The notes under the pieces are model-generated. The model made no database searches. It was not told the origin of the DNA and was given only the letters and a program-made list of their open reading frames with translations. A stretch of DNA of 30,943 bases from a virus, in IMG/VR virus record IMGVR_UViG_3300035698_009463, positions 1-30,943 of that record. One strand, written 5' to 3'. Made by a program: the position numbers and the translations under genes. Positions 18,939 to 30,943 of this stretch are shown here, one piece after another (position 1 is the stretch's first letter; each line of letters begins with the position of its first letter).

Positions 18939-21813
<2,875 letters not shown>

Positions 21814-21814
21814 A

Positions 21815-24406
21815 ATGTTAAATAAATTACCTGGTGTATATATTAAAGAAACAAACTTAGTTCAACAAACCCAAGAAGATCCGGGTTTCGTTCCTGTTGT
21901 TGCTATGTTACCAGCTGAAACAGGATATGCTAATGAAAACACTATAGTATACGACCAATTAGATTTTATAAGTAAGTTTGGATATCCAACTGAATATAAT
22001 TTTAAATACTGGTTTAATATTTATAACTATCTAGGATATTTTAATTACATTAATGTAATGAGAGTCATTGATCCTGATACTCACAAAAATTTTTCATTAT
22101 TATATGACGATACATCAGTAACTAATAATTCACTTTCAAATATTTATAATTATAATATGTCTATTGATAATTTAACTACTTATGATATAACTGGAGATTA
22201 TAAATTTGAAATATTTAACAGAAAGATATCAAATTATGATGATATAGCTGTTAGTATATGTTCATCAGAAGACTATTATGAAGAACCAATATCTATTGAA
22301 ACATTGGATGAATATATAATAAATGATAGTTTATACATCCCTCCTTCTGTTTATTCATTGAGTAACGAAGATAAATATATAATAGATAATAATAAATTAG
22401 CAATAACTTTAATTGCCTTAGGTGTAGGGGATGTATTAGAAATAACTGTTAGTGAAGATATAACAAATGATGTATCAGCTTTAGATTATATAAAAATAAC
22501 AAACAGTGGATACACACTATCTACTGCTGGGGCTCTAGATACAATAGAAATGTTTAGAATCGTAAGTGTTGTATATACAACTAGTACATTGATAACTTTA
22601 GCTGCATATGCCGGAGAAACATTAAGTAATGATGGGACAGGATATGGCTATATAAACTATTCAACTGACCTATGGAACACTAGTACAAATAATGAAGGAA
22701 TAGTTGCAGAATTTTCTGCATCCATTGTGGATATATACGATATTAAAACTAATTCCTCAAATGTAACTGAAATAACAATATTAGGAGATTACACAGCTGA
22801 TATCTTATTAAATGGATATATCTATATAGTTGAAAATAATATACAAGGGACACAAGGAAAATATCTAGTGAGTGCTAATTCAACTGTATCTAGTGGATAT
22901 ACTACAATATTACTATATGAAGATTTAGAAATAACTTCTATATCAGGTTCTGTTTTAATAGATTCAACTATTGCTTGGGCAATATCAAATGTTGTAGCGG
23001 ATACTTCTTATTATGTAAATAATAGAGAAACTGAATATTCTTTAGTTAGTGCAGTTTGGACAAAATCTTTATTGGAACTTAGTTATGTAGTATATGAAGG
23101 AGTTGTTCACAGAAAGATGTATGATTCATATACTCAAAATTCTAGAACTGGTACCATAAAATCTTTTAAGGCTTTGATAGGAGAGAATGTAAATTTTGAT
23201 AATGAGATAGTTTTAATTGTTCACAAAAAGGGGTATAATCAAACCTTCTTCACATCTACTGAATTTTATGTTGTTAGTTTAGAATCTAGTAATGTAATAA
23301 GAGATAAAAATAATTTTTGCGAAAATATAATAAATGAAAAGTCTAATTTAATTTATTTTAGACTTGGGGATATGACTAATGTTACTATCCAAGATATGAA
23401 AGTAGATACTTATGATGGTAGTTTAATAGATTATATAATAGAAGATACTGATAGTTACGATTATGATAATATAAAAGATTATGACTTATATTATTCAAAA
23501 AGTAGCTTTTATAGAAATAATAAAAATATAGCATTTTCATATTTCTTAGGATTGGAATTAATAAAAACTATAAGTGCAGTAGAACACGACACTATGAATT
23601 TAGCTAGTATTATAGCTGCAGAAAGGGAAGATATAATTGCTATCATATCTCCTTGGGATGAATCTAGATATCTGAATTTAACTGAAACTCAATATGCAAC
23701 TAAAATAATAGAAGATTTTGGATGTAACAGAACAGAAGATAGTTTATATTTCAGTGAATTTAGTACTTACTCAGCAATATATAATAATATGAAATTAGAT
23801 CTTGACAAACTAAATTTAAAATATAGATGGTTACCATTGATTGGTGATATAGCCGCAATTTATGTAAATGAGGATATTTATAATTCAGAATTCTCAGCTC
23901 CAGCTGGATTATCTACATTAGGAATTAAAAATATATCTAAACTTCTTTTTTCTACAGATGATGAAGATTTATCTAACGAACTAATCTATAATTCTATAAA
24001 TAATATTGTAAGAGATAACATAACTAGAAGTTATATTTTATTTGATATTCTAACAGCTACAGATGAAGATTTGCTAACAAGTAGATTGAATATAAGAAGA
24101 ATGGTAAATTATTTAAAAAGAAGACTTAATGTTTATTTAAAAGCTTATTTATTTAAAGAAAATATTCCATTGACAAGATCTGATATATCAAATGGTTTAA
24201 ATAGTATATTGTCTGATATAAAAGCAAACAAAGGAATTACTGATTATGAAGTTATATGTGATGAAAGAAATAATTCATCAGTTACTGTTAATAATGAGGA
24301 GTTAATAATCAATATTGCAATTAATCCAATAAGAGTAATAAGACAAATATTTATAAACATAGATTTAGTAAAGAGCACAATAAATATAACAGAAATTGAA
24401 ATATAA
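21815..24406 (+). CDS. gp18: Tail sheath protein paralogue 1 (gp18-like)
   Basis: 863 aa from the ATG at 21815, one base after the terL stop, with GGAG at 21806-21809. An in-frame TTG at 21800 is an unlikely start. The N-terminus KLPGVYIKETNL is the classical sheath start. DFISKFGYPTEYNFKYWFNI follows, and YRWLPLIGDIAAI begins near residue 670. The C-terminal block (LNIRRMVNYLKRRL, RSDISNGLN, DYEVICDERNN and the last strands) is the conserved polymerisation domain. Two beta-modules sit at about residues 224-268 and 315-372 in the inserted region. Its position directly after terL matches gene 18 in T4. It is more diverged from paralogues 2 and 3 than they are from each other. Confidence 0.88.
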   Translation: MLNKLPGVYIKETNLVQQTQEDPGFVPVVAMLPAETGYANENTIVYDQLDFISKFGYPTEYNFKYWFNIYNYLGYFNYINVMRVIDPDTHKNFSLLYDDTSVTNNSLSNIYNYNMSIDNLTTYDITGDYKFEIFNRKISNYDDIAVSICSSEDYYEEPISIETLDEYIINDSLYIPPSVYSLSNEDKYIIDNNKLAITLIALGVGDVLEITVSEDITNDVSALDYIKITNSGYTLSTAGALDTIEMFRIVSVVYTTSTLITLAAYAGETLSNDGTGYGYINYSTDLWNTSTNNEGIVAEFSASIVDIYDIKTNSSNVTEITILGDYTADILLNGYIYIVENNIQGTQGKYLVSANSTVSSGYTTILLYEDLEITSISGSVLIDSTIAWAISNVVADTSYYVNNRETEYSLVSAVWTKSLLELSYVVYEGVVHRKMYDSYTQNSRTGTIKSFKALIGENVNFDNEIVLIVHKKGYNQTFFTSTEFYVVSLESSNVIRDKNNFCENIINEKSNLIYFRLGDMTNVTIQDMKVDTYDGSLIDYIIEDTDSYDYDNIKDYDLYYSKSSFYRNNKNIAFSYFLGLELIKTISAVEHDTMNLASIIAAEREDIIAIISPWDESRYLNLTETQYATKIIEDFGCNRTEDSLYFSEFSTYSAIYNNMKLDLDKLNLKYRWLPLIGDIAAIYVNEDIYNSEFSAPAGLSTLGIKNISKLLFSTDDEDLSNELIYNSINNIVRDNITRSYILFDILTATDEDLLTSRLNIRRMVNYLKRRLNVYLKAYLFKENIPLTRSDISNGLNSILSDIKANKGITDYEVICDERNNSSVTVNNEELIINIAINPIRVIRQIFINIDLVKSTINITEIEI

Positions 24407-24421
24407 AAGACAGGATTAAAA

Positions 24422-26833
24422 ATGATAAATAAAAAATACAACCCAACAATGACTTTTACTGAAACTGAAGTTAGAAATCCAGTAAGGGAAAAACTTGGGG
24501 AAACAACAACAGGGATGATACTAGGTTCTAATTCCGGATTTGCTGGAATCCCAACTAAGATTTCAACAGAAAAAGAACTAGTTCAATTATTTGGTGAACC
24601 AACTGACTATAATTATAGAGATTGGTTTAATGCAGCTGGATATTTGAATTATGCTTCAAATTTATATGTTGTGAGACCATTTAGTTCAACTTGGGAAAAT
24701 GCAGGTGCAGAAATTTCTCATTTATCAACTACGGTAGGTATATCAGGAGTTATGAAATCAGATTTGTATAACGAAGAAATTGCAGAGGGAACTTTAAATG
24801 ATGATATAACTTTCTCAGACACAGATAATACAAAACTTAAAATCTACAATAAATTTGTATCCACAAAAGATGATATTGCTTTTGCAATAGCAGGAGATGA
24901 AACAAGCTTTGGGAATTACATATCTAACGATGTAAATAACTTTACTATAAAAGAAACAACTGTTTATGCCTTAGCTCCAAGTATAGTTGATTATCTTCAC
25001 GGAGATGGTGTTGTTATAAAACCTATAATATCAGGTTCAACAGTAGTAAATACAATAACAATCCCTTGGTTATCAGATGCTCCTGTAGTTTCTGATGAAG
25101 GAGCTTATATAACAATAACAGGAACAGGTATTGTTGTAGGTACTGATATTAAAATTGGTGATTTGATTGAAATAAATGGGACATACTGGCCTATATTAGA
25201 TATAGAGACTGGAGTTTTAACAATCCAAGATACTGGTGATCCTTGGGCTATTCCAGTTATTGACACAGACCACGATACATATTTAGGATTTAATTTAGTT
25301 CTAAAAGCAGATAAAATAAATAATGTTTGGGTTGAAAATACAAACGCGTTTATAAATGATGAAGTAGTGTACGTAACTAGTGAAAATAAATATTATACAT
25401 ATGACACTGTAACATATAGTTTTGCAGAAGCAAGTACATCTCTTCAATCAGAAAAAACAGTTGTTGTAAAAGATGTTACAACTGGTTTAATTGATTATGT
25501 TGTTAGACAGAATATGAATTCGATATATTATAATAGTGACAAGACTCCTTATATATTCTCTGACATTTTTAACTATACTCCTGATTGGGAAAATAAAGAA
25601 GTGGCTTTAATAATCTTTAAGAAAAATTCAGATATTAATCTTTTTGAAATTGTGGAAACTTTTGTAGGATCATTATTAGAAAATGCTAAAGATAGTATCG
25701 GCTATAGTTCTTATATAGAAAAACTTGTTAATAAGAAATCAAACTATATTTATTTAAAAGCTAGAAGTGCAGCTGAGATCACAGCTTGGGAAACAACTCA
25801 AAGTGCAACATATGGTTATAATACAAACTTATCGACAAATACATTTAATTTAAAGCAAACTACTTTAACAGATTCAAATGGAACAATAACAGATTATTCA
25901 CAAACAGCAGATGATGTTACAGGTGGATTATCAACAACTAATTTAATAACAGCTAGTGAATTCTTTGGTCTTAGTGGTGTTATGAATCCACATATTCTTT
26001 TAGGATTCGATAACTTGAGAACAGCTGGTTATCTTAACACAATGCCTCAAATCGCAGAACAAACCGGTATGAGTTTAGCACTTGTAGGAATTTGGGATAT
26101 AGGTTCAATGGGTACTTATATAGAATCTAGAAAAAACACAACAGTTTTATCTTTATTAGGAAATAATAGAGAAGAACCTTCTGTTGGAGCATTAACTGAA
26201 TTTAATGATTGGACAATGGTATTTGGAAACTTAAAAAGAATTAAAGATTCTTATAATAACATAAATAGATGGGTACCGGTTATTGGAGATATTGCAGGAA
26301 AGATGACATACAATGATTATATAAATGGTTCACAAAGTCCAGTAGCAGGAATAAAAAGAGGTTTGTTAACTAATTTTGATAAATTACTTTTAAAGAACAC
26401 TGATGAAAATGAATTCTCAAAGAATGGTATAAACTCAATCATATACGATAACGAATTAGATATCACTATGATTTTCGATTATATAACTAATACATTAAAA
26501 GATCTTATTGTTAGAGAAGCGAATATCAGAAGAATGATTATCTCAATCAAACATTTTTTAAAGAGAGTTTTAAAAGGTAATTTCTTCGATTTCAATAACA
26601 CAGCAACAAGAAACTTGACATTATTTAATATAAGTACAGTATTTTCTTACTTTAAATTAAATGGTGGATTGTTTGATTATGAATTAATTTGTGACGAAAG
26701 TAATAATACACCAGATCAAATAAATCAAAACAATTTTATATTAGATATTAAAATACAGCCAAATCGTACAATTAAATATATTTATGTGAATATAGTTAAT
26801 TATGATATGGGATTAGATATAAAAGAATTATAA
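24422..26833 (+). CDS. gp18: Tail sheath protein paralogue 2 (gp18-like)
   Basis: 803 aa. The N-terminus contains MTFTETEVRNPVREKLGET, then LVQLFGEPTDYNYRDWFNAA; the core RWVPVIGDIAGKMTYNDY begins at about residue 616, and the C-terminus has NIRRMIISIKHFLKR, FNNTATRNLTLFN and DYELICDESNN. All are sheath hallmarks. It is the closest relative of paralogue 3: the N-terminal 100 and C-terminal 350 residues align nearly without gaps, and a 111-nt block is 96% identical. The inserted region (about 180-330) is unlike that of paralogue 3, apart from a beta-module at about 227-272. It has no promoter of its own and only 15 nt upstream, so it should be co-transcribed with paralogue 1. RBS AGGA. Confidence 0.92.
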   Translation: MINKKYNPTMTFTETEVRNPVREKLGETTTGMILGSNSGFAGIPTKISTEKELVQLFGEPTDYNYRDWFNAAGYLNYASNLYVVRPFSSTWENAGAEISHLSTTVGISGVMKSDLYNEEIAEGTLNDDITFSDTDNTKLKIYNKFVSTKDDIAFAIAGDETSFGNYISNDVNNFTIKETTVYALAPSIVDYLHGDGVVIKPIISGSTVVNTITIPWLSDAPVVSDEGAYITITGTGIVVGTDIKIGDLIEINGTYWPILDIETGVLTIQDTGDPWAIPVIDTDHDTYLGFNLVLKADKINNVWVENTNAFINDEVVYVTSENKYYTYDTVTYSFAEASTSLQSEKTVVVKDVTTGLIDYVVRQNMNSIYYNSDKTPYIFSDIFNYTPDWENKEVALIIFKKNSDINLFEIVETFVGSLLENAKDSIGYSSYIEKLVNKKSNYIYLKARSAAEITAWETTQSATYGYNTNLSTNTFNLKQTTLTDSNGTITDYSQTADDVTGGLSTTNLITASEFFGLSGVMNPHILLGFDNLRTAGYLNTMPQIAEQTGMSLALVGIWDIGSMGTYIESRKNTTVLSLLGNNREEPSVGALTEFNDWTMVFGNLKRIKDSYNNINRWVPVIGDIAGKMTYNDYINGSQSPVAGIKRGLLTNFDKLLLKNTDENEFSKNGINSIIYDNELDITMIFDYITNTLKDLIVREANIRRMIISIKHFLKRVLKGNFFDFNNTATRNLTLFNISTVFSYFKLNGGLFDYELICDESNNTPDQINQNNFILDIKIQPNRTIKYIYVNIVNYDMGLDIKEL
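25975..26085 (+). repeat. Near-identical sheath block, copy 1
   Basis: 111 nt matching 28406-28516 in the same orientation with only four mismatches (at 26008, 26014, 26015 and 26017). The last 68 nt (26018-26085) are identical. It encodes the core GVMNPHILLGFDNLRTAGYL and the following residues. A second block, 26568-26613 against 29002-29047, differs at one base in 46. Confidence 0.95.
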
Positions 26834-26836
26834 ATA
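26829..26836 (+). promoter_or_regulatory. T4-type late promoter core TATAAATA overlapping a stop codon
   Basis: Exact TATAAATA that includes the TAA stop (26831-26833) of sheath paralogue 2 and ends 34 nt before the ATG of paralogue 3. A strong AAGGAG RBS is at 26857-26862. It gives paralogue 3 its own late transcript. Confidence 0.65.
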
Positions 26837-26870
26837 ATAGAAAAAGAAACATTAACAAGGAGTTAAAATA

Positions 26871-29270
26871 ATGGCAAATAAACAAGTAAGCCCTTTTATG
26901 GCTTTTACTGAAACTGAAGTTAGAAATCCTATCCAACAAAAATTGGGTTCGACAAATACTGGTATGATATTACCAGCTTCAAATGGTCCAGCAGGAAGTC
27001 CTATCAATATTACAACTGAAAACGAACTTGTTGATATATTTGGAAAACCAAGCGCAGGGAATTATAGAGATTGGTATAATGCAGCAGGTTATTTGAAGTA
27101 CGCTTCAAATTTATATGTTGTAAGACCAATTAAAACAACTTGGGCAAATTACGGTATAATGTTAGACATTACAGATCCAGCTGATATGGTTGCACCTGAC
27201 AGTTTAACAAATATGTATAACAAAGAAATAGCTCAAGATACTTTAGATGCAGCGGCAGATTTAGCTAGTAATGAAGTATTGGCATTCTACAACAAATATA
27301 TTAATAAGAAAGATGAAATAGCAGTATTAGTTTGTGCGAAAGATGATGATTATGAAGAAAGAATTACAGCAGATTCGATAACAAACTACGTTTCATCATT
27401 AACAAGATATACAGGAGCGGGAGCAGTAACAATTCTTCCAGCACCTTCTACTATTACTCACGGAGATGCATATATAATTTCTGCAACCTATGATACTGGA
27501 GTAGTAACAAATGGTAAAACATATACAAATGCTTCTGTATCAGCTACAGCAGGTGTTTTCACATTAACTTCGGCTAGTACATTAGTTGCAGTAGGTCAAG
27601 GGATAGTTTTCATCCCGACAGCTGGAACAGCAACATCATATACTATAACAGAAGTTACAACCGGTACTTTCACAGTAAGTGATCTAACAGCTGCAGCTTC
27701 AGGAGTTAATATAGATGTATATAACACTCTAATGGAAGCTGAATTAGCAAATGGTGACGAAACTATAACAGATTATCACATTATGACAATGAACAAACTT
27801 GGAACTTATAATGATTGGACATTAAGTGCAGTTCTTGTAGCAGGAGTTGATATTTATAACGCAGCTGATAAAAATGTTTGGACATTTGTTGCTGGTGCAA
27901 CAGATACAGCAATAACTTATCAACCTAAAGATTTCACTATTCACAAAGATGCTGATACTTTATTAATAGATTATGTTGTAGCAAAATATCTTGGGTCTAG
28001 TTTATACAGAAGTGATAAGAAGCCAATTAAATTCTCAGACGTATTTTCAACTAAGCCTGATTTCCTAGCGAATGAACTTGGTGTTATCGTATTGAAGAAA
28101 GATGGTATTGGTTACTGGCAATTAGTAGAAAACTTTATTGGTTCTTTCAATAGTTCAGCTACTTATCCATCAGGATTAAGTAAATTTATTGGAAAACAAG
28201 TAAACAAAAATTCAAATTATGTTTATTGTAGAGCACAACCAGGTTATACTGGAACATTCTCAACTAAAGATTATTCAGTTAGAGATATGGTATTAGTAGA
28301 TGGTAATTCAGATGTGGTAGATTATTCATATACTACTGATATGACAGTTACTTATGGATTGAGTACATCAGACTTAGAAACAGCAACAGAGTATTTCGGT
28401 CTCAATGGTGTTATGAATCCACATATTCTTTTAGGATTTGATAATCTTAGAACAGCTGGTTATCTTAACACAATGCCTCAAATCGCAGAACAAACCGGTA
28501 TGAGTTTAGCACTTGTTGGTGTTTGGGATTCAGTAGGAATTGCTGGTCAGACAGACGCAACCATAAATCAAGCAATAATTGATTTATTAGGAAATAAAAG
28601 AGCTGAGCCTTCTGTTGGAGCTTTAACAGAATTCAATACTTGGACAATGGCGTTCGGTACTCTTAAATATGTATATGACCAATATAACGATACACATAGA
28701 TGGGTTCCTGTAATTGGTGACATAGCCGGAATGATGACCTATAATGATTTCACAAACGGTCCTCAGAGTCCTGTAGCGGGTATCAAAAGAGGTATCTTCA
28801 AAAATTATGAAAAGTTGATATTCAACGGAAACTACGACCAAAATGAACTTTCTAAAAACGGTATCAATGCAATCGTTTATGATTATGACATCGACGGAAC
28901 AATGGTATTTGAATATATCACTAATACATTAGAAGACCTTATTGTTAAGGAAGCAAATGTTAGAAGAATGATTATTGCGATAAAGCATTACTTAAAGAAA
29001 ATTTTAAAAGGTAATTTCTTCGAGTTCAATAACACAGCAACAAGAAATTTAACATTGTTCAACATCTCAAAAATATTTACTTATTTCTTGGGTAATGGTG
29101 GATTGTTTGATTATCAGTTAATCTGTGACGAGAGCAATAACACTGATGAAAGAATAAATCAGAACGAGTTTGTATTAGATATTAAACTACAACCTAATAG
29201 AATAATCAAGTATATTTACGTTAATATAATCAATTATGATATGGGATTAGATATAAGAGAAAATGTATAA
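26871..29270 (+). CDS. gp18: Tail sheath protein paralogue 3, probable major sheath (gp18-like)
   Basis: 799 aa. It starts MANKQVSPFMAFTETEVRNP; LVDIFGKPSAGNYRDWYNAA follows. The core RWVPVIGDIAGMMTYNDF begins at about residue 610, and the C-terminus has NVRRMIIAIKHYLKK, FNNTATRNLTLFN and DYQLICDESNN. The inserted region (about 180-370) is rich in Ala, Thr and Gly and carries a beta-module at about 228-273. Of the four sheath genes only this one has both its own late promoter and a full AAGGAG RBS at ideal spacing, so I infer that it is the most abundant sheath subunit. T4 gp18 (659 aa) is shorter; the excess lies in the insertion, which should face outward. Confidence 0.93.
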   Translation: MANKQVSPFMAFTETEVRNPIQQKLGSTNTGMILPASNGPAGSPINITTENELVDIFGKPSAGNYRDWYNAAGYLKYASNLYVVRPIKTTWANYGIMLDITDPADMVAPDSLTNMYNKEIAQDTLDAAADLASNEVLAFYNKYINKKDEIAVLVCAKDDDYEERITADSITNYVSSLTRYTGAGAVTILPAPSTITHGDAYIISATYDTGVVTNGKTYTNASVSATAGVFTLTSASTLVAVGQGIVFIPTAGTATSYTITEVTTGTFTVSDLTAAASGVNIDVYNTLMEAELANGDETITDYHIMTMNKLGTYNDWTLSAVLVAGVDIYNAADKNVWTFVAGATDTAITYQPKDFTIHKDADTLLIDYVVAKYLGSSLYRSDKKPIKFSDVFSTKPDFLANELGVIVLKKDGIGYWQLVENFIGSFNSSATYPSGLSKFIGKQVNKNSNYVYCRAQPGYTGTFSTKDYSVRDMVLVDGNSDVVDYSYTTDMTVTYGLSTSDLETATEYFGLNGVMNPHILLGFDNLRTAGYLNTMPQIAEQTGMSLALVGVWDSVGIAGQTDATINQAIIDLLGNKRAEPSVGALTEFNTWTMAFGTLKYVYDQYNDTHRWVPVIGDIAGMMTYNDFTNGPQSPVAGIKRGIFKNYEKLIFNGNYDQNELSKNGINAIVYDYDIDGTMVFEYITNTLEDLIVKEANVRRMIIAIKHYLKKILKGNFFEFNNTATRNLTLFNISKIFTYFLGNGGLFDYQLICDESNNTDERINQNEFVLDIKLQPNRIIKYIYVNIINYDMGLDIRENV
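28406..28516 (+). repeat. Near-identical sheath block, copy 2
   Basis: Partner of 25975-26085, offset 2431 bases. It lies inside sheath paralogue 3 at the equivalent codons and in the same reading frame. Confidence 0.95.
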
Positions 29271-29280
29271 AAGGAAATAG

Positions 29281-30903
29281 ATGACATCTATTAAATTTAC
29301 AGAAAATTCTTTTCAGAAAACTACAAAAGATAATGTGAGCGACAATCATTTAGAGATTGTCGCACCATTATTATTCAGTTATAATTACGGAAGATATCCA
29401 GTGACACTGACATCTATCTCTGAACTAATTAGAGAATTTGGATATCCAACAGATAGTAATTATAGAGAATGGTTTCAAGTATATAATTTCCTTAATTACA
29501 GCGATTCTATAGATGTAGTAAATCCAACAACAGAGGAGATAGCAAACACTGTTCTTTCTTATAAAGGGATAGTAGTTCCTCCGGTTACATATGTAACAAG
29601 TTTTTATAATCCGACTATAAAAGATTTAGATTTAATTATACCGGATGATACAGAAACATTGAAAGTAGTAGAAAAATATCCTAATATGACAGATACTAAT
29701 TTAGCTGTTTTAATTTGTGGATTATCTACAAAATGGACTGAACCTATTTCAGTTGAGACAACAACAATATATAATGAGTTTTATCAAACAGGAACAACTG
29801 TAGTTTCTTGGAATGATTTATTCACTACAAAACCAGATTTTGATAATTCAGAATTCGCAATGCTTGTTGTTAGGAAAATAGGAGATTATTATGAATTTCA
29901 AGAGAGATGGATTCTTTCTTTAGATTCCATAAGTTCTAAATATGTTGGTACGTTAAATGACGATTCTAAATATGTTTATGCTAAATATGGAGATGATTTA
30001 ACTTCATATATTGACACTAGTGAAATGTCATTATTATCTTGTGTGTTTGTTCCTGATACTTCAATAACAGAACAAACTGTAGCTGAAATGTATAGTGACA
30101 CATTCGATGAAATAGATTTAGAAGCTTATAATATTATGATAGGATATGTAACAAATCCTTATATTTCAATAGATGAGTGCACAACAAAATTTACAAATAG
30201 TAGTTGTGTTTGTATAACAGGATTATATGACGAAACAAGATACTCAAATATGGATACTAGATTAGAAGATATTATAAATGATGTTGGGTTATTCCCAACA
30301 ACCAGTTCAGGATATTTTACAGATTTTCATTCTAATATTTTTATAACAGGTAATATCAAAAAGCAATATGATGAATTTAATGATACTTATAGATGGTTGC
30401 CTTTATTTGGTGATGTAGCTGGTTTGATGGATATCAATTATTTGGAAACTAGTATAGCAGGATTTAAAAGGGGTGAGATTAAAAATTGTAGCAAATTATT
30501 AATTTATCCTAGTGATAGTCAATCAACTTTATTAGGAAAAAATTCAATCAATCCTATTATTTATGATAGAGATTATAATGGAAAATTTCTTTTTGGAGAG
30601 AAGACTTGTGAAGAAATTGAAATTAAATTTAAGTATATAACAAATAGAATAACTCATAATAAAATAGAAACTACAGTATCTGGATATATAACAAATTCAG
30701 GCATAACAGATACTGAACCAAAGAATGTAGAAAGGATATTAACCAAAACAAGAAAATTATTGAATTATTATAAAACACTTGTGAAAATATCTGATTATAC
30801 CATTCAATATACTATAAATAATAATGAGGTTGAGTATAGTTTAAGTATAAACTATCCATCAACTATAAACGAAATAACAATAAATATAATTTATAAAACA
30901 TAG
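29281..30903 (+). CDS. Short, divergent tail sheath paralogue 4
   Basis: 540 aa. The sheath plan is still visible: LIREFGYPTDSNYREWFQVY, a short domain, DTYRWLPLFGDVAGLMD from about residue 369, SIAGFKRGEIKNCSKLLIY and NPIIYDRDYNGKFLF. The large beta insertion of the other three is missing. The C-terminal domain is altered: the [NV]-x-RRM helix, the 'NNTATR' strand and the '[YF]-x-[LV]-[IV]-CDE' strand cannot be found, and a different Thr/Lys-rich region (FKYITNRITHNKIETTV) stands there. It may be a capping or baseplate-proximal variant rather than a bulk subunit. It ends with TAG, the only non-TAA stop in the window. RBS AAAGGA. Confidence 0.78.
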   Translation: MTSIKFTENSFQKTTKDNVSDNHLEIVAPLLFSYNYGRYPVTLTSISELIREFGYPTDSNYREWFQVYNFLNYSDSIDVVNPTTEEIANTVLSYKGIVVPPVTYVTSFYNPTIKDLDLIIPDDTETLKVVEKYPNMTDTNLAVLICGLSTKWTEPISVETTTIYNEFYQTGTTVVSWNDLFTTKPDFDNSEFAMLVVRKIGDYYEFQERWILSLDSISSKYVGTLNDDSKYVYAKYGDDLTSYIDTSEMSLLSCVFVPDTSITEQTVAEMYSDTFDEIDLEAYNIMIGYVTNPYISIDECTTKFTNSSCVCITGLYDETRYSNMDTRLEDIINDVGLFPTTSSGYFTDFHSNIFITGNIKKQYDEFNDTYRWLPLFGDVAGLMDINYLETSIAGFKRGEIKNCSKLLIYPSDSQSTLLGKNSINPIIYDRDYNGKFLFGEKTCEEIEIKFKYITNRITHNKIETTVSGYITNSGITDTEPKNVERILTKTRKLLNYYKTLVKISDYTIQYTINNNEVEYSLSINYPSTINEITINIIYKT

Positions 30904-30912
30904 GGAGTAAAA

Positions 30913-30943
30913 ATGGCAGATATAGTATATTCTACACTAGATG
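30913..30943 (+). CDS. Start of the next gene, possibly tail tube (3' partial)
   Basis: Only ten codons (MADIVYSTLD) are present before the window ends. The ATG has GGGAG at 30903-30907 as RBS. In T4 the tube gene 19 follows the sheath gene 18, so a tail-tube protein is the natural expectation, but the visible residues cannot confirm it. Confidence 0.45.
   Translation, partial: MADIVYSTLD

Follow-up and report, generated by a model that had tools for sequence, protein, structure and literature searches.

Probable gene conversion between two of four tandem tail sheath genes in a phage genome fragment

How do two neighbouring phage genes, most of whose silent positions have drifted close to saturation, come to share stretches of nearly identical DNA? 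The question is raised by a virus record of 30,943 bases (28.7% G+C), a fragment of a genome, which was analysed over its whole length and is hereafter called the window. Four consecutive genes of the window, S1 to S4, match the tail sheath family phrog_23. The Pfam signature PF17482 was found above its cut-off in S1, S2 and S3, and S4 has no Pfam match. Upstream of this array, T4-type tail and neck matches comprise a tail tube cap, a baseplate wedge, a weakly matching tail tube, the head closure protein Hc2 and a sheath stabilizer; they are followed by the terminase large subunit gene, which precedes the sheath genes. The latter are separated by spacers of 15, 37 and 10 nt, as follows (Ga and Gc are sheath genes of a related contig described below).

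21800-24406, + strand: sheath gene S1, 868 aa; phrog_23 E 1.6e-41, PF17482; groups with Ga in the tree
24422-26833, + strand: sheath gene S2, 803 aa; phrog_23 E 1.1e-34, PF17482; codon usage points weakly to it as the likelier recipient
26871-29270, + strand: sheath gene S3, 799 aa; phrog_23 E 7.3e-41, PF17482; codon usage points weakly to it as the likelier donor
29281-30903, + strand: sheath gene S4, 540 aa; phrog_23 E 7.6e-25; groups with Gc in the tree

A profile built from ten sheath proteins, the four of the window and six from related loci, matched solved tail sheath proteins, including gp18 (PDB 3j2m, 3foa and 9mkb). The best match was to 9ev2 (E 8.3e-90), and Gp18 of 3j2m, from T4, was matched with E 1.2e-85. 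A structure prediction for S3 from 10 sequences reached a mean pLDDT of 42.4, which is too poor for use. Two minor features of the window concern other genes: the terminase large subunit (19510-21813) shows a weak, sub-cut-off similarity to PF14890, the intein splicing domain (E 1.4e-4, residues 122-215), and the 24 listed genes end in TAA in 23 cases, in TAG in one and in TGA in none.

Within the array, alignment of S2 and S3 confirmed the near-identical blocks claimed in an earlier note made from the sequence. Block 1 matches at 107 of 111 bases and contains a perfect 68-nt run, and block 2 matches at 45 of 46.

25975-26085, + strand: block 1, S2 copy; 107/111 identical to the S3 copy, perfect run at 26018-26085
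28406-28516, + strand: block 1, S3 copy; 68-nt run from 28449
26568-26613, + strand: block 2, S2 copy; 45/46 identical to the S3 copy
29002-29047, + strand: block 2, S3 copy, as aligned to the S2 copy

The window contains the 68-mer at two places only, 26018 and 28449, which lie 2431 bases apart. None of the other 54 among the 55 sheath pairs compared has an identical run longer than 23 nt. Both blocks have sharp edges: mismatches number 11 and 13 in the two 30-nt flanks of block 1, compared with four in the 111 bases inside, and 9 and 11 in those of block 2. All four block 1 mismatches (26008, 26014, 26015 and 26017) are synonymous. At block 2, a run of identical silent codons (16 of 16) spans 26552-26611.

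Elsewhere the two genes differ clearly, as had also been stated. Amino-acid identity is 51% over the aligned genes and 48% outside the blocks (350 of 725 residues), and among degenerate codons that specify the same amino acid in S2 and S3, 246 of 383 (64%) are identical, against 208.7 (54%) expected for independent draws from the codon usage of the window. By region, block 1 shows a local excess over the rest of the pair, with 30 identical silent codons out of 33 (16.7 expected). Block 2 has 13 out of 13 (7.4 expected), and the remainder of the genes 203 out of 337 (184.6 expected). Silent sites outside the blocks are thus near saturation, and the uniformly low synonymous divergence that the earlier note had set against its own reading is absent.

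The blocks had been picked for matching, and the in-block comparison is therefore post hoc; scans over the whole S2/S3 pair are not. When same-amino-acid codons were shuffled over the S2/S3 alignment, a 68-nt run was obtained with P = 0.0002 (20,000 permutations), and when all codon columns were shuffled it was never reached in 5,000 permutations, the largest run being 37. A tract test using codons only gave P = 0.005, 0.0006 or 0.010 for block 1, varying with the background model; the value of 0.0006 corresponds to a background fitted outside the two blocks and that of 0.010 to the codon usage of the four sheath genes. Under the latter model, two of 44 control pairs fell below 0.05, S2/Gb (0.003, arising in a sparsely matching region) and S3/Gb (0.045), Gb being another sheath gene of the related contig, which indicates that this codon-only test is noisy. 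The significance of block 1 with silent codons alone (P 0.0006 to 0.010) is accordingly moderate. Block 2 on its own is borderline (P 0.12 or 0.05, depending on the background model); as the second-best tract it has P 0.0006 under the model whose background was derived from the sequence outside both blocks.

Could the blocks be leftovers of a recent whole-gene duplication, or the product of protein conservation combined with codon bias? They do lie in conserved sheath motifs, with 36 of 37 residues identical between S2 and S3 in block 1 and 13 of 15 in block 2; on an alignment to 9x3p, counted by hand, they correspond to approximately residues 366-407 and 568-581. Codon bias, however, is already part of the null models, and six windows over 26189-26479, each with 20 to 28 identical residues out of 37, show less codon identity than expected. 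The near-saturated silent sites outside the blocks imply that the S2/S3 duplication is old, and they rule out a recent whole-gene duplication. We therefore regard this explanation, taken with its conservation variant, as very improbable.

An assembly artefact, in which the metagenome assembler homogenised or mis-joined the repeats, deserves mention, as a perfect repeat of 68 nt is within the k-mer range of short-read assemblers. The two copies nevertheless differ at four bases and are set in clearly different flanks. Moreover, we reason that a wrong traversal of two tandem direct repeats would drop the loop between them rather than leave both genes intact. Assembly error is unlikely, and we consider it the least probable of the explanations weighed here.

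Comparison with other viral sequences was used to place the S2/S3 pair. The best relative obtained is the contig IMGVR_UViG_3300033153_003434 (61,040 bases), which carries four sheath genes, Ga, Gb, Gc and Gd. A second contig, IMGVR_UViG_3300033148_003281 (14,761 bases), matches it at 99.96% identity over its whole length; in this shorter contig Gb has an in-frame stop (L015:9318-9320) where the relative has a sense codon, which reflects either an error of sequencing or a gene copy that is broken. Two or more sheath open frames were found in seven of the 92 loci examined, a count that leaves out 11 loci corresponding to the window itself or to single matches in the relative, and all seven are stretches of these two contigs; the same holds for three of 15 loci in a second set. 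Many of the other loci are short, and their phages are not thereby shown to be single-sheath. Searches with sheath profiles yielded the four-sheath contig, its shorter near-identical counterpart and distant loci (in one search, among the best 80 of 157 matches), and a search of viral contigs with S3 alone returned two loci, one of them useful, and no close relative with the same S2/S3 pair. An exact 35-mer from block 1 was absent from all contigs of the viral collection, although that collection may not include the record of the window itself. Among genome contigs, 277 pattern matches included no relative, a search with the terminase found none, and nothing in the phage collection matched the S2-S3 DNA. 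With the S2 protein as query, 2414 records of that collection gave matches, in 2416 places; all were below 60% identity and no match extended over 80% of the protein, indicating that a second detectable sheath gene is rare there, although more distant ones may be missed.

In a protein tree computed without the blocks, S1 groups with Ga and S4 with Gc, and the remaining genes are arranged as (Gd,(Gb,(S2,S3))), with support of 96/96 for the S2+S3 node and Gb branching next. The blocks are not homogenised in Gb and Gd, and the codons of these genes match those of S2 and S3 there at about chance level, in what is a single and distant four-sheath relative. Thus, in block 1, identical codons number 14 of 25 for S3/Gb (12.6 expected), 11 of 24 for S2/Gb (11.9), 7 of 18 for S3/Gd (8.7), 6 of 17 for S2/Gd (8.0) and 7 of 16 for Gb/Gd (7.9). 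The excess identity is therefore particular to the S2/S3 pair of the window.

The same counts bear on the alternative offered in the earlier note, that a nucleotide-level constraint, such as an RNA structure, a regulatory site, an overlapping gene or an endonuclease recognition site, prevents the block from changing in either gene. Identity of silent positions at two places is what such a constraint would produce. With Gb and Gd at chance-level codon identity to S2, to S3 and to each other in the blocks, however, no nucleotide constraint reaches the relative. In addition, stop codons interrupt all five alternative reading frames of block 1 in both copies, the fold z-scores of the two copies are ordinary (-1.22 and -0.85), no Rfam family was found at its gathering score in the window, and promoter-like sites in 21700-30943 are as numerous as in shuffled sequences (67 vs 67.0). 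The constraint alternative is thus unsupported, and we give it little credence; a constraint confined to the window's own lineage would still be compatible with the sequences.

Recent non-reciprocal recombination between the paralogues S2 and S3, i.e. gene conversion, is in our judgement the probable origin of the near-identical stretch. We propose that S2 and S3 arose long ago by tandem duplication of a gp18-like sheath gene, and that ectopic homologous recombination recently occurred between them, either inside a single genome or between genome copies replicating in the same cell. Some 110 nt of one gene would have been overwritten by the sequence of the other without crossover, leaving a conversion tract. 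Towards the 3' end, a further and shorter tract (about 46-60 nt) may stem from the same event or from another. The copying of a short tract between paralogues accounts for silent identity that is local and sharply bounded. Phage or host recombination functions would presumably have carried out the conversion. The position of the blocks in conserved sheath stretches would fit such a course of events, as the recipient protein would tolerate the swap there and residual DNA similarity would be highest. For block 1, the data (30/33 silent codons, P 0.0002) support the earlier note's proposal of recent gene conversion or recombination; for block 2 that proposal is plausible.

One feature of block 1 does not conform to the simplest form of this model. 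Its mismatches are clustered within 10 nt (26008-26017; P 0.002 under random placement), which is not what a single clean tract followed by random later mutation would leave and thus counts against that simple model. The cluster may represent an unconverted island or a mosaic of two tracts.

The direction of transfer was addressed through codon usage, using a log ratio towards S3. The S2 copy of block 1 scores 4.87, a value reached by 1.4% of 643 overlapping S2 windows and by 4.2% of S3 windows, and the S3 copy scores only 2.00, reached by 14.6% of S2 windows. The codon usages of the two genes overlap broadly (mean log ratio -0.12 in S2 and 0.52 in S3), and the values for block 2, 3.89 in S2 and 4.64 in S3, are uncalibrated. 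Codon usage would thus point weakly to a transfer from S3 to S2. Since the searches brought up no close relative that shares this S2/S3 pair, the event is neither dated nor polarised by comparison.

Phylogenetic signal was also compared on the two sides of block 1, in an alignment of four genes. Downstream, S2+S3 is strongly preferred, rival topologies being worse by 25 log units (AU 0.0004). Upstream, the topology leans to S3+Gb, S2+S3 being worse by 3.6 (AU 0.22), a difference that is not significant and was obtained with no closer outgroup. Earlier exchange may have affected the 3' third; alternatively, the 5' part may simply have diverged too far to be informative. Mosaicism of the whole gene was considered, given that the two sides lean to different topologies, but the upstream signal is not significant.

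A special form of conversion would be one in which a homing endonuclease cut a conserved sheath site and the paralogue served as the repair template. Its plausibility comes from the relative, which has two DUF7487 genes (E 2.7e-55 and 2.6e-50; L001:3045-3773 and L001:8065-8985) that also match homing-endonuclease PHROGs. They lie within its sheath array, where one overlaps the 3' end of Gb and the other overlaps the 5' end of Gc by a few bases. In T-even phages, free-standing endonucleases cause localised gene conversion through their cuts, as described in PMC2988022. The window itself, however, has no match to DUF7487 (PF24308) in a six-frame search, compared with two in the relative, and none of its 24 listed genes matches a homing-endonuclease PHROG, the window being a fragment. 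Its sheath-gene spacers are too short for an endonuclease gene, and no cleavage site is known. An endonuclease trigger therefore appears unlikely in this case. Still more speculative, and to our mind quite doubtful, is the idea that the four-sheath array is partly homogenised by repeated conversion driven by homing endonucleases that relatives carry within the array, which would keep conserved stretches of mixed-sheath subunits compatible while outer domains diversify.

Gene conversion is an ordinary, known process; its setting here, four sheath genes in a row, is unusual. The homing-endonuclease-driven co-conversion and marker exclusion of T4-related phages (PMC2988022) likewise consist of local non-reciprocal replacement via break repair, but the exchange there takes place between co-infecting phages or alleles, whereas here it would involve two paralogues of one genome, with an endonuclease gene not found in the window. 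The T4 sheath is made of copies of one protein according to PMC3622015, unlike the four-gene array described here. The sheath gene is likewise duplicated in the Pseudomonas jumbo phage PaBG, whose two-component tail sheath comprises proteins 38% identical to each other (PMC7412058); the window has four such genes in tandem, and homogenised blocks in two of these. For Vibrio phage Pv27, the annotation lists two tail sheaths (PMC12063606). The extracellular contractile injection systems Afp and PVC combine several sheath proteins in one particle (PMC8894135), paralleling the multiple sheath genes found here; they are not phages, and their sequence similarity to the sheaths of the window is only distant. 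Literature matches to 'four tail sheath' turned out to concern subunits or discs of one protein (PMC10491603, PMC12362608). Within the available text of the open-access literature searched, we encountered neither a case of conversion among the sheath paralogues of a phage nor a phage with four sheath genes, at most two being described.

If conversion between S2 and S3 did take place, the pair would illustrate, clearly and on a small scale, how paralogous structural genes of one phage recombine ectopically, a process that can preserve the compatibility of interlocking subunits. With its four sheath genes in tandem, the phage lineage goes beyond the two-component sheath reported for PaBG, and gene number in such arrays may change by recombination between copies. 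Finally, the 68-mer is in the same codon phase in S2 and S3, so that a deletion between the two repeats, of the kind envisaged in the earlier note, would give an in-frame S2/S3 fusion, an outcome that the sequence would permit.
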